Assembly (NCBI GenBank): GCA_017557405.1
Contig: JAFYYV010000009.1
Location: 94,721-158,720 of the forward strand
Origin: Prevotella sp.
Lineage (GTDB): Bacteria > Bacteroidota > Bacteroidia > Bacteroidales > Bacteroidaceae
DNA: 64,000 nt
Direction: 5' to 3'
In this document: positions 3,934 through 64,000 of the stretch, piece after piece
How positions within the stretch are numbered: the first letter of the stretch is position 1
Layout of the letters: the number at the start of each line of letters is the position of its first letter
Program-made: the position numbers and the translations under genes
Notes under the pieces: model-generated
What the model was told of the DNA's origin: nothing
The model's database searches: none
The model's input: the letters and a program-made list of their open reading frames with translations, nothing else

Positions 3934-4016
3934 TCATTTGTGGCTTTTGACCGTCCCATTGCATAGCTTTGACGCTCTCATTGCATAGCTTTAACAACGT
4001 CATTTGTGGTCTTTGA
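3934..4016. repeat. 22-nt periodic palindrome array, locus 1 (4 units)
   Basis: Four 17-nt cores start at 3934, 3956, 3978 and 4000, exactly 22 nt apart, separated by 5-nt spacers CCGTC, CGCTC and CAACG. The cores are TCATTTGTGGCTTTTGA, CCATTGCATAGCTTTGA, TCATTGCATAGCTTTAA and TCATTTGTGGTCTTTGA. A further in-phase degenerate unit ending TTTTTGA may lie at 3912-3928. The array lies between the terminator of the TPR gene and the promoter of the GH127-type gene. Same family as the arrays at 15319, 33383, 55226 and 63738. Confidence 0.85.
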
Positions 4017-14992: not shown

Positions 14993-15066
14993 GGCGGGAT
15001 AGCTCAGTTGGTTAGAGCGTCGGATTCATAATCCGGAGGTCGAGGGTTCGGGTCCCTCTCCCGCTA
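14993..15066 (+). tRNA. tRNA-Met (CAT anticodon), elongator type
   Basis: A 74-nt cloverleaf. The acceptor stem GGCGGGA pairs with TCCCGCT (G1-U72 wobble) and A73 is the discriminator. The anticodon stem TCGGA/TCCGG encloses the loop TTCATAA, giving anticodon CAT. The T arm is GAGGG-TTCGGGT-CCCTC. CCA is not encoded. Initiator features (C1xA72) are absent, so this is the elongator form; an Ile2 tRNA with modified CAT cannot be fully excluded by eye. Confidence 0.96.
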
Positions 15067-15318: not shown

Positions 15319-15423
15319 TGAAAGCTATGCTTTGACCTTGTCAAACGATAGCTTTGAGGGCGCAATATGTATGCTTTGACCTCGTCAAAGCTATGCTTTA
15401 GCAGGGTCAAAGCATAGCTCTGA
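15319..15423. repeat. 22-nt periodic palindrome array, locus 2 (5 units)
   Basis: Five 17-nt cores start at 15319, 15341, 15363, 15385 and 15407, exactly 22 nt apart. Examples are TGAAAGCTATGCTTTGA, TCAAAGCTATGCTTTAG and TCAAAGCATAGCTCTGA; spacers are CCTTG, GGGCG, CCTCG and CAGGG. The centre words CTATG and CATAG are reverse complements, so units of both orientations are mixed. The rest of the gene-free stretch 15110-15676 is AT-rich and holds a perfect 12-nt palindrome, GGATTGCAATCC (15466-15477). I see no gene in it. Confidence 0.88.
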
Positions 15424-29522: not shown

Positions 29523-29595
29523 TGACTCGCTTGGGGCTCGAACCCAAGACCCCAACATTAAAAGTGTTGTGCTCTACCAACTGAGCTAGCGAGTC
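29523..29595 (-). tRNA. tRNA-Lys (TTT anticodon)
   Basis: A 73-nt cloverleaf on the minus strand. The acceptor arms GACTCGC/GCGAGTC pair perfectly, and A73 follows. The anticodon stem CAACA/TGTTG encloses CTTTTAA, giving anticodon TTT. The T arm includes GGGTTCGAGCCC. CCA is not encoded. Confidence 0.96.
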
Positions 29596-33207: not shown

Positions 33208-33240
33208 AATAAGGGTGCTCACATGAGCACCCTTATTTGT
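33208..33240 (+). terminator. terminator after the coiled-coil lipoprotein gene
   Basis: AATAAGGGTGCTC (33208-33220) and GAGCACCCTTATT (33225-33237) form a perfect 13-bp stem with a 4-nt loop; moderately T-rich at the end. Confidence 0.85.
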
Positions 33241-33241
33241 T

Positions 33242-33619
33242 AAATAAATTCTGAATTTTGGTGCCACGAGAAGGCCAACGTTTTGAAAAAATCTTCCTCG
33301 TGGGCAAATACGCGAGTTTTGAGCGTTTTTGGAAATCGTTGATAATCAGTGGTTTCCGTTTCCTTTACATTATATAGCGTTGTCAGAGCTATGCAATGAC
33401 CTTGTCAAAGCTATGGAATGAGCTTGTCATAGCTATGCTTTGAGGGTGTCAGATGCCACAAGTAAGCGTGTCAAAGCATAGCTATGAGCGCCTCAGGTGC
33501 CACATGTGACAATTTCCTATGTGGGAAATGAGGAAATTGGAAAGAAAAAGTCGTTTTCTCACTCCATTTTTTTTCTAGATTGAACGAAAAAGTCAACAAC
33601 TTTTTGTCGTGTTTTTTCA
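33242..33619. repeat. about 380-bp intergenic element, copy A (contains array locus 3)
   Basis: Aligned by eye with 55115-55494 read in reverse, this block has the same parts in the same order. They are AAATAAATTCTGAATT (33242-33257); hairpin 1 with arms CCACGAG (33264-33270) and CTCGTGG (33297-33303); a conserved AAATACGCG; hairpin 2 (33331-33357); a CTTTACAT stretch; the 22-nt array (33383-33531); a poorly conserved part; and a conserved right end from TTTTCTAGATT (33571) to TTTTTTCA (33619) containing ACGAAAAAGTC and TTTTGTCGTG. It fills the space between two convergent genes and has no coding potential that I can support. Confidence 0.85.
33383..33531. repeat. 22-nt periodic palindrome array, locus 3 (7 units)
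   Basis: Seven 17-nt cores start at 33383, 33405, 33427, 33449, 33471, 33493 and 33515, exactly 22 nt apart. Examples: TCAGAGCTATGCAATGA, TCATAGCTATGCTTTGA, TCAGATGCCACAAGTAA, TCAAAGCATAGCTATGA, TCAGGTGCCACATGTGA; the last is degenerate, TCCTATGTGGGAAATGA. Both centre words (CTATG/CATAG and GCCAC/GTGGC) occur in the same array. An in-phase degenerate unit at 33361 (TCCTTTACATTATATAG) is also conserved in copy B. Confidence 0.9.
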
Positions 33620-33639
33620 TCGCTATGGAATATCGTCCT

Positions 33640-34074: not shown

Positions 34075-34552
34075 ATAATTAATTTTTAATTTACAATTTA
34101 CAATTTACAATTTAAAATTTATTGGACGATTTTACGATTTCACTATTTCACGGGCTAACGTCCCTTTAACTCCTTTTTAACCATTCCCCTCACTTCCTAC
34201 TCCCCCCTTTTGGGAAAGGCTACGGGTAGGCGAGCCTTGCTCGGGAATGAGGATGGGAGGGGGCTTCCTTTTTTATTCTAACGCGCGCGAGGCGTCAGTA
34301 TTGTGTGGAAAAATGAGATCTGACGGAAAAAGTTGCAAAAAATGCCTCGGTTTTGCAAAAATAGTAGTAAATTTGTAAGCGAAACAGAAGGAAAGAGTAT
34401 AAAGAGCATAAAGTGGAGTGGAAGAGTATAAAGGGACATTAGCCCCAGATAATGAGATAAAAGGGTATTCTCTTACCTCTCACCTCTTAATTCTTACCTC
34501 TAAGATTTTAATCTTACCAACTTAGAAACTCAAAAACTTATAAACTTAAATA
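34075..34552. other. 478-bp gene-free region with low-complexity sequence and a distant inverted repeat
   Basis: Next to tadA are three heptamer copies of AATTTAC (34086-34115 region). A 17-nt sequence GGGCTAACGTCCCTTTA (34152-34168) recurs inverted as TAAAGGGACATTAGCCC (34429-34445), 16 of 17 matching. Between them are C-rich and G-rich tracts, a TAAATTTG box (34368-34375) that could be a weak -7 element for the GH95 gene, and repeats of AGAGTATAAAG. No open frame here is convincing. Confidence 0.6.
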
Positions 34553-55114: not shown

Positions 55115-55494
55115 TGAAAAATCACGACAAAATGTTGTCGACTTTTTCGTTTAATCTAGAAAAGGAAAATGTAAAATATTTTCATTTTACATCTCTTTCG
55201 CCTCGTTTTTTATGCTCGCAAATCGTCAGATGCGGCATGTGAGGTTGTCAGATGTGGCATTTGAGACGCTCACTTGTGGCATTTGAGGGCGTCAGATGCC
55301 ACATATAGCGAGCTCAAAGCATAGCTCTTGCAAGATGAAAGCATAGCTTTGACAATCCTATAAGATGTAAAGAAAACGGAAGTTGTTGATAGTCAGCAAC
55401 TTCTGGAAATGCTCATTTTTCGCGTATTTACCCACGAGGAAGATATTTTCTAAAACGAAGGCTGTCTCATGGTATTAGAATTCAGAATTTATTT
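55115..55494. repeat. about 380-bp intergenic element, copy B (contains array locus 4)
   Basis: Inverted relative to copy A at 33242-33619. In plus coordinates the conserved end runs from TGAAAAATCACG (55115) through ACAAAATGTTGTCG to TCTAGAAAA (55163). The array is at 55226-55352, hairpin 2 at 55379-55403, a conserved CGCGTATTT follows, hairpin 1 has arms CCACGAG (55432-55438) and CTCATGG (55466-55472), and AATTCAGAATTTATTT (55479-55494) closes it. The two copies are almost equal in length although they hold seven and six array units. It lies between divergent genes. Confidence 0.85.
55226..55352. repeat. 22-nt periodic palindrome array, locus 4 (6 units)
   Basis: Six 17-nt cores start at 55226, 55248, 55270, 55292, 55314 and 55336, exactly 22 nt apart: TCAGATGCGGCATGTGA, TCAGATGTGGCATTTGA, TCACTTGTGGCATTTGA, TCAGATGCCACATATAG, TCAAAGCATAGCTCTTG, TGAAAGCATAGCTTTGA. 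The first four have the GCCAC/GTGGC centre (or close to it), the last two CATAG. An in-phase remnant at 55358-55374 corresponds to the one at 33361 in copy A. Confidence 0.9.
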
Positions 55495-55567
55495 GACAAA
55501 AGAGATGTTTCGAGAAAGCTTTGAATGGAGAGATTAATTTGACAAAGAGATAAAAACACGGTTTCGT

Positions 55568-63737: not shown

Positions 63738-63820
63738 TCAAAGGCCATCAATGAGCCGCTCAAAAGCCACAAATGGCAGGCTCAAAGCTATGCAATGACT
63801 TGGTCAAAGATGGTCTATGA
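63738..63820. repeat. 22-nt periodic palindrome array, locus 5 (4 units)
   Basis: Four 17-nt cores start at 63738, 63760, 63782 and 63804, exactly 22 nt apart: TCAAAGGCCATCAATGA, TCAAAAGCCACAAATGG, TCAAAGCTATGCAATGA, TCAAAGATGGTCTATGA. A degenerate in-phase unit may follow at 63826. It lies upstream of the DUF4251 promoter. From here to the window end (63843-64000) I see no gene. Confidence 0.85.
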
Positions 63821-63910
63821 CACAGACAAAATGATGCTTGCAGAAAAAGCGTATTGCTTGAGCTGGCCTGTAAAACATTTAACATCGGAAAGGCGAAGGG
63901 AGCAATTTTG

Positions 63911-63938
63911 CAACATGCAACATGCAACATGCAACATT
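63911..63938. repeat. heptanucleotide tandem repeat
   Basis: Four copies of CAACATG (the last ends in T) in a row. The last 30 bases of the window are strongly AT-rich. Confidence 0.85.
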
Positions 63939-64000
63939 TAGTACCTTCCACATGTGCAAAATGCCTCCCTCTACTATGGGTTATTATAATATATAATATA

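Follow-up and report, generated by a model that had tools for sequence, protein, structure and literature searches.

REP elements and BIMEs, known together with the RAYT proteins, comprise short, dispersed, extragenic palindromes that are clustered and species-specific. Dispersed architectural sites have also been recorded in bacterial chromosomes and, to our knowledge, each of those known is tied to one sequence. PINSR is a 188-bp repeat of the Prevotella intermedia/nigrescens group, with 177 and 184 copies in two strains and about three quarters of its places common to both, according to its description (PMC4755523). BrickBuilt of Porphyromonas gingivalis is described as a dispersed intergenic element in which a tandem short repeat lies between leader and tail segments; its authors found none outside P. 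gingivalis and P. gulae, and the same report mentions 22-nt repeats in P. gingivalis W83 (PMC4596501). Oligomers of the Lrp type are described as binding imperfect dyads of 13-17 bp placed two or three helical turns apart, with the DNA wrapped (PMC2995911).

In this study, we analyzed a stretch of 64,000 nucleotides from a Prevotella sp. genome (G000; 3,557,533 bp in 54 contigs), hereafter the window, in which a sequence-only reading had reported intergenic arrays of degenerate palindromes, TCA-N11-TGA, at an exact 22-nt period. The arrays resemble PINSR in being intergenic, non-coding repeats of Prevotella, the PINSR copy number is close to the roughly 200 arrays per genome extrapolated for G000 from 68 in 1.23 Mb, and PINSR is without terminal inverted repeats, like the type A element described below (PMC4755523). 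The difference is one of description only, PINSR being presented as one 188-bp sequence with 22-bp units unmentioned in that account (PMC4755523); PINSR may be a member of the same class, and if it proves to be one, such an element is already known while its nature is not. BrickBuilt, likewise dispersed, intergenic and built on a short tandem repeat, differs in having a period of 23 nt, no spacer, 19 copies and, in some copies, IS5-like inverted ends, as described (PMC4596501); our arrays lie at 22, with no comparable excess at a period of 23 nt. Multi-site operators of Lrp/AsnC proteins share with the arrays the imperfect 13-17-bp dyads and the two-turn spacing, and are described as bound by wrapping oligomers at two- or three-turn spacing; theirs are described at regulated genes, whereas the arrays are dispersed and come in several unrelated spellings per genome (PMC2995911, PMC10201364). 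A REP/BIME-like nature had been proposed for the arrays, which are likewise short, extragenic, imperfect palindromes, but they lack a fixed tetranucleotide and have a strict 22-bp period and an exclusion zone, and no RAYT link was found, which weakens this proposal: the domain PF01797 was present in five of eight genomes chosen for their arrays and in four of eight chosen as TCA-array-poor, and in none of G409, G332 and G032. No 22-bp dyad array, and no period-locked dyad array with changing sequence, was found in a literature search whose coverage leaves most subscription journals outside. Since the defining features tested for known families (MITE, REP/RAYT and BrickBuilt) fail, we regard the class as categorically new, although it is set apart from PINSR by description only.

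Identification of arrays in Prevotella sp.

The five arrays of the window are real: the recount gave 26 dyad units at the positions first reported, with a TCA start in 21 of 26, a TGA end in 20 of 26 and a start-to-start distance of 22 nt throughout each array. The features of the window are as follows (arrays by profile and recount, no strand assigned).

3934..4016, array of 4 dyad units, TCA type, without backbone motif
15319..15423, array of 5 dyad units, TCA type, without backbone motif
33236..33625, + strand, type A dispersed element, about 385 bp, with an array inside, outer ends approximate (matches and alignments)
33305..33324, + strand, backbone motif CAAATACGCGAGTTTTGAGC, 0 mismatches (motif search)
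33383..33531, array of 7 dyad units (the 7th starts TCC), TCA type, within type A
33571..33582, + strand, right-hand motif TTTTCTAGATTG of type A (alignment)
55115..55500, - strand, second type A copy, about 71% identity to the first, ends approximate (sequence match)
55226..55352, array of 6 dyad units, TCA type, within the second type A copy
55411..55430, - strand, backbone motif with 4 mismatches in the second type A copy (motif search)
63738..63820, array of 4 dyad units, TCA type, without backbone motif

The exact doublet TCA-N11-TGA-N5-TCA-N11-TGA occurred 278 times in the 3.56-Mb genome, and the pattern read backwards did not occur. A position-weight profile of units chained at 22 bp was employed to scan the window and further stretches of G000, 1,227,247 bp (1.23 Mb) in total, with the reversed sequence as control. 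At thresholds of 18, 22, 26, 30 and 35, the profile found 71, 69, 68, 67 and 61 arrays in the forward sequence and 1, 0, 0, 0 and 0 in the control, respectively. The 68 arrays at threshold 26 were used throughout; they consist of imperfect 17-bp dyads at a 22-bp period, with three units (1 array), four (19), five (26), six (11), seven (8) or eight (3). The arrays are therefore beyond chance, by the doublets (278 vs 0) as well as by the profile (68 vs 0), and are not confined to the window, two points on which the sequence-only reading had made the idea of a functional family depend. The intergenic position it had noted is general: genes were called by a home-made codon-usage method, no standard gene finder being used, and none of the 68 arrays overlapped a predicted gene by more than 20%, so that essentially all are intergenic. 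The flanking genes were divergent at 20 arrays, tandem at 28 and convergent at 15, the remaining 5 lying at contig or stretch ends. The ideal core with perfectly pairing arms, TCAAAGCTATGCTTTGA, turned out to be rare, being missing from the 60 commonest of 62 unit kinds, and the commonest full unit with both strands pooled, TCAAAGCTATGCAATGA (29 of 176), has two unpaired arm positions.

The type A element and its backbone in other genomes

Two of the window loci, 33383 and 55226, belong to the type A element, and the other three are without its backbone motif. The 33-kb copy matched 44 places in G000, many of them partial, at 65-100% identity. Two alignments were made, of 30 and 27 copies; in the former, units 3, 4 and 5 change as whole words, and exactly 22 nt are missing in two copies and 10 nt in one. 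Other arrays of G000 are without type A flanks. The backbone motif CAAATACGCGAnTTTTGAGC was found within 160 bp of 17 of the 68 arrays and of none of 68 random places (at most 5 mismatches).

When the type A sequence was compared with 16 genomes, short matching stretches were obtained in G409 (52), G016 (12), G029 (3) and G026 (1). A period-22 dyad array in other words was present at all six G016 loci and at the G026 locus, which scores at period 21 too, and the G029 locus failed. The 20-bp backbone motif was detected in 54 of 181 genomes of the genus with at most 2 mismatches, the reversed control being detected in five genomes, once each; among the matches listed, 22 genomes including G000 had five or more. 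From the matches listed, 20 backbone loci of 11 further genomes, one of which (G012) had one TCA doublet in the doublet search, were picked before their arrays were seen. The best array period among 17-27 was 22 at 16 of the 20 loci (binomial P 7e-14), and the mean score was 0.53 at period 22 and 0.36-0.40 at other periods. One G319 locus and the loci of G419, G394 and G265 had another best period, and the G219 locus, counted as period 22, is marginal (0.43 vs 0.42). Array words vary between species at these loci; within species they are alike in G016, G303, G403 and G421 and unlike between the G319 loci and at one of three loci in G012.

Conservation of the period across changed sequences

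The TCA doublet was searched for in 398 genomes of the family and was most frequent in G409 (332), G000 (278), G254 (67), G397 (64), G028 (35) and G327 (23), the six genomes with at least 20; G332 (8, control 26) and G396 (7) ranked next. Control-pattern hits in G351, G332 and G032 led to the same 22-bp geometry there with AGT...ACT ends. A motif-free detector was used, in which half-sites are pooled, the motif is ignored and period 22 is compared with the highest other period among 18-26 at a score of 0.54; other periods served as control because a reversed dyad is still a dyad. G409 was also scored in this way because the profile retrained on it gave 7 reversed hits from AT-rich units. G409, G332, G351, G327 and G397 were sampled because exact patterns pointed there, G024, G367 and G276 through contig positions known from one to three doublet hits, and G016, G010 and G003 as TCA-array-poor genomes, G016 also for its type A flank match. 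Hits at period 22 and at the best other period, respectively, were 76 and at most 9 in the 1.23 Mb of G000; 35 and 7 in G409 and 13 and 5 in G332 (400 kb each); 10 and 0 in G351, 4 and 0 in G327, 0 and 1 in G397 and 2 and 0 in G024 (100 kb each); 6 and 1 in G367 and 1 and 0 in G276 (40 kb each); and 2 and 0 in G016, 0 and 1 in G010 and 2 and 0 in G003 (20 kb each). A clear excess at period 22 is thus present in most, not all, of the sampled relatives: no array was found in the 100 kb sampled from G397, though TCA arrays are present elsewhere in that genome, or in the 20 kb sampled from G010.

Mutually unrelated half-sites occur at period 22, including TCA, AGT, TTGA, TTACC, GTACA and TAAAA, and TTGA...TCAA and CGGAA...TTCCG are further non-TCA end pairs at the same geometry. 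G000 itself contains TTACCA, GTAC, TTACATG and TAAAATA arrays beside those of TCA type. Identity between adjacent units generally peaks at the outer bases and falls to its minimum in the spacer and the inner positions, although some small or near-identical sets are exceptions. The modal array size is five units, not four, in the two commonest sets. TCA-N11-TGA, taken as the defining feature in the sequence-only reading, is only one lineage's spelling, and the absence from close relatives that would have counted against a functional family holds for that spelling only, the 22-bp class occurring respelled in relatives. The drifting sequence noted earlier reflects in part the common descent of dispersed copies, but unrelated families do keep the period. 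One geometry, a 17-bp dyad at a 22-bp period, persists across unrelated spellings, among elements with a common backbone and in places where one family has taken the position of another.

Several further repeats were noticed during these searches. TAAAATA-N3-TATTTTA blocks of about four units occur in G409 (C1 65069, C2 101208 and others) and G000 (C16 54127, C44 84677), several of them standing between TCA-type units and keeping their 22-bp register. A pair of nearly identical TTCCCA...TGGGA arrays of four units, with flanks in common, lies near 874283 and 923136 of G332 C1 (L276 and L279), and the gene adjoining one of them resembles, by eye, a DNA methylase. The 67 doublets of G254, and L041, L069 and L080 of Phocaeicola oris, involve TCAACTCATCCGCATGA-like units whose spacers appear as constant as the cores, and these arrays may be a different repeat. 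A phage origin was considered and rejected; matches to four exact units were seen in three viral contigs, and the motif-free hits there resemble ordinary near-identical tandem repeats.

Positional conservation and mutual exclusion

The compared stretches of G000 and G409 (RUG11493) had 163 reciprocal best hits with a median identity of 88.7%. With a minimum length of 100 bp in both genomes, 34 syntenic gaps were compared; arrays were present at 13 in G409 and 10 in G000, and all 10 were shared (expected 3.8, P 2e-6). The result was similar with a minimum of 150 bp (22 gaps, 9 of 9 shared, expected 4.5, P 1e-4) and of 250 bp (12 gaps, 8 of 8 shared, expected 5.3, P 0.002). Three of the ten shared pairs can be aligned as one and the same array, in about four the two genomes have different families in that position, and the rest are ambiguous; at one of the ten loci (gene 62 of G409 C2) the array call is doubtful. 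The swaps comprise TTACCA against TCA type A, GTAC against TCA, and two of TAAAAT-containing against TCA-like arrays. Seven G409 arrays have no partner in G000, where the gap is then shorter (16-221 bp vs 179-673), which indicates that single sites are dispensable. Each of the 11 gaps of at least 150 bp in both genomes that were empty in both had a G409 array no more than about 5 kb away.

Arrays exclude one another in four genomes. The coefficient of variation of inter-array gaps was 0.57 in G000, 0.52 in G409, 0.33 in G332 (nine arrays, P 0.002) and 0.45 in G351 (ten arrays, P 0.04), compared with 0.94+-0.11, 0.92+-0.15, 0.86+-0.24 and 0.74+-0.19, respectively, for random intergenic placement. 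Only 1 gap in G000 was shorter than 5 kb, against 14.7 expected. Suitable intergenic gaps were grouped by distance to the nearest other array (0-2.5, 2.5-5, 5-7.5, 7.5-10, 10-15 and 15-40 kb), and the fractions occupied were 0/55, 2/66, 6/43, 14/41, 19/55 and 15/40 in G000, which is 2/121 up to 5 kb and 48/136 beyond 7.5 kb, and 0/24, 5/27, 14/19, 8/15, 4/7 and 0/2 in G409. Exclusion also holds between element types: for type A and the remaining TCA arrays, 0 of 20 lay within 5 kb (random 5.2+-1.9, P 0.002), and none of the seven AT-unit arrays of G409 lay within 5 kb of another array (random 3.6, P 0.004), an effect gone at 8 kb (5 of 7 vs 5.1 expected). The ten non-TCA arrays of G000 showed no clear exclusion from TCA arrays within 5 kb (3 vs 4.1).

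Possible function of the arrays

The geometry, dispersion, exclusion, positional conservation and respelling within related elements demonstrated here fit best, among the readings considered, with a dimeric protein bound at every second helical turn, as the sequence-only reading had suggested; the binding itself, its dimeric and cooperative nature and a chromosomal role are what we infer. Arms were compared with shuffled halves in six genome sets and were no better in three, marginally better in two and better in G000. Arms being little or no more complementary than shuffled in five of the six sets, the symmetry appears to come mainly from a common half-site set, as for a protein dimer. Each dyad would take one dimer of an oligomeric DNA-binding protein, and dyads two turns apart would place the dimers on one face of the DNA and allow a cooperative assembly over 4 to 8 dyads, a length of at least about 88 bp. 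Such platforms, some riding on small dispersed elements with a conserved backbone, would be spread over intergenic DNA, mostly at least 5 kb apart, as docking sites on the chromosome, and when the recognition sequence of a lineage changes, its arrays would be respelled with the 22-bp geometry kept. We tentatively take the arrays as putative binding platforms of this kind. The earlier suggestion of a chromosome-organizing site gains support from the kilobase-scale exclusion and the positional conservation. Lrp-type genes numbered 2-3 in each of 16 genomes and were equally common in those chosen as TCA-array-poor; against several unrelated spellings per genome, so few such genes count against the docking explanation. 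The same holds for the non-TCA arrays of G000 without clear exclusion, the AT-unit arrays of G409 at 8 kb, the G409 arrays without partners, the modal size of five units, the stretches of G397 and G010 in which no array was found and the absence of a widely shared neighbor gene. The fuller version, in which a fast-changing DNA-binding protein co-evolves with its many dispersed sites, the words being rewritten in concert in each lineage, and an exclusion radius of about 5 kb marks chromosomal intervals, is more doubtful.

A somewhat less probable reading is that the arrays belong to a superfamily of small selfish mobile elements and are sites for the transposition machinery or for an immunity protein, the exclusion being transposition immunity. 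Type A is indeed a coherent dispersed element, the short G000 gaps facing the seven partnerless G409 arrays are as insertions would leave them, and shared immunity sites would account for the mutual avoidance of type A and the other TCA arrays. However, type A has neither terminal inverted repeats (score 8 vs 6.1 shuffled, P 0.12, examined for type A only) nor an excess of 4-6-bp target duplications (13 of 30 copies vs 12 of 30 with shuffled flanks), an unsystematic look found no transposase near arrays, different families at one syntenic place are unexpected from random insertion, and one period is kept by unrelated spellings. A chromosomal docking role is narrowly preferred over pure selfish mobility, and it is likely that the arrays are cooperative dimer-binding arrays under one or the other. 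If nucleoid organization is involved, the arrays would make the chromosomal domains of a genus prominent in gut and rumen accessible through sequence; if transposition immunity is, a mobile family spaces itself along the chromosome.

Action at the RNA level seems unlikely, whether the units fold as a row of small hairpins, as had also been proposed, or as one larger structure of the transcript. The window copy does outscore shuffled sequences in folding (z -2.41 on the + strand and -3.97 on the - strand), and arms in G000 pair better than shuffled halves (2.14 vs 1.69 of 4). In type A, where whole words of units 3 and 5 change together, 12 of 55 predicted pairs show changes on both sides, and for the five of these that lie in the two units such double changes occur in 6-7 of 27 sequences. 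These same pairs are, however, broken or absent in 4-7 of 27 copies, the often non-complementary arms elsewhere argue against hairpins, 20 of 68 arrays lie between divergent genes, and no array of the window had an Rfam match at the gathering score. That each array is an operator of its adjoining gene is improbable as well: all are intergenic and many have a gene start at most a few hundred bp away, but exclusion zones would be unexpected of operators, the neighbors of the rarer families are varied, several arrays start 5 bp past a stop codon, and no neighbor gene was common to more than three of the compared species, the best cluster joining three loci in three species. A six-frame stop barrier was also considered, as TCA and TGA give a stop codon on one strand each and the frame moves by one with every 22-nt step; in its favor, 29 TAA and 6 TAG are among the 91 non-TGA ends in G000, but families with AGT...ACT, TTGA...TCAA and CGGAA...TTCCG ends rule it out.

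Other repeats and RNA genes of the window

The only Rfam matches in the window are two tRNA genes, 14993-15066 (+) and 29523-29595 (-). Intergenic 7-bp tandem repeats, AATTTAC and TGCAACA, were noted at 34088-34121 and 63909-63937. Another dispersed repeat (gcacatgtgg...aggtgctt plus short tandem words) adjoins the last window array at 63891-64000, and was also seen near the starts of L127 and L132, in L142 and where contigs C1 and C3 end.
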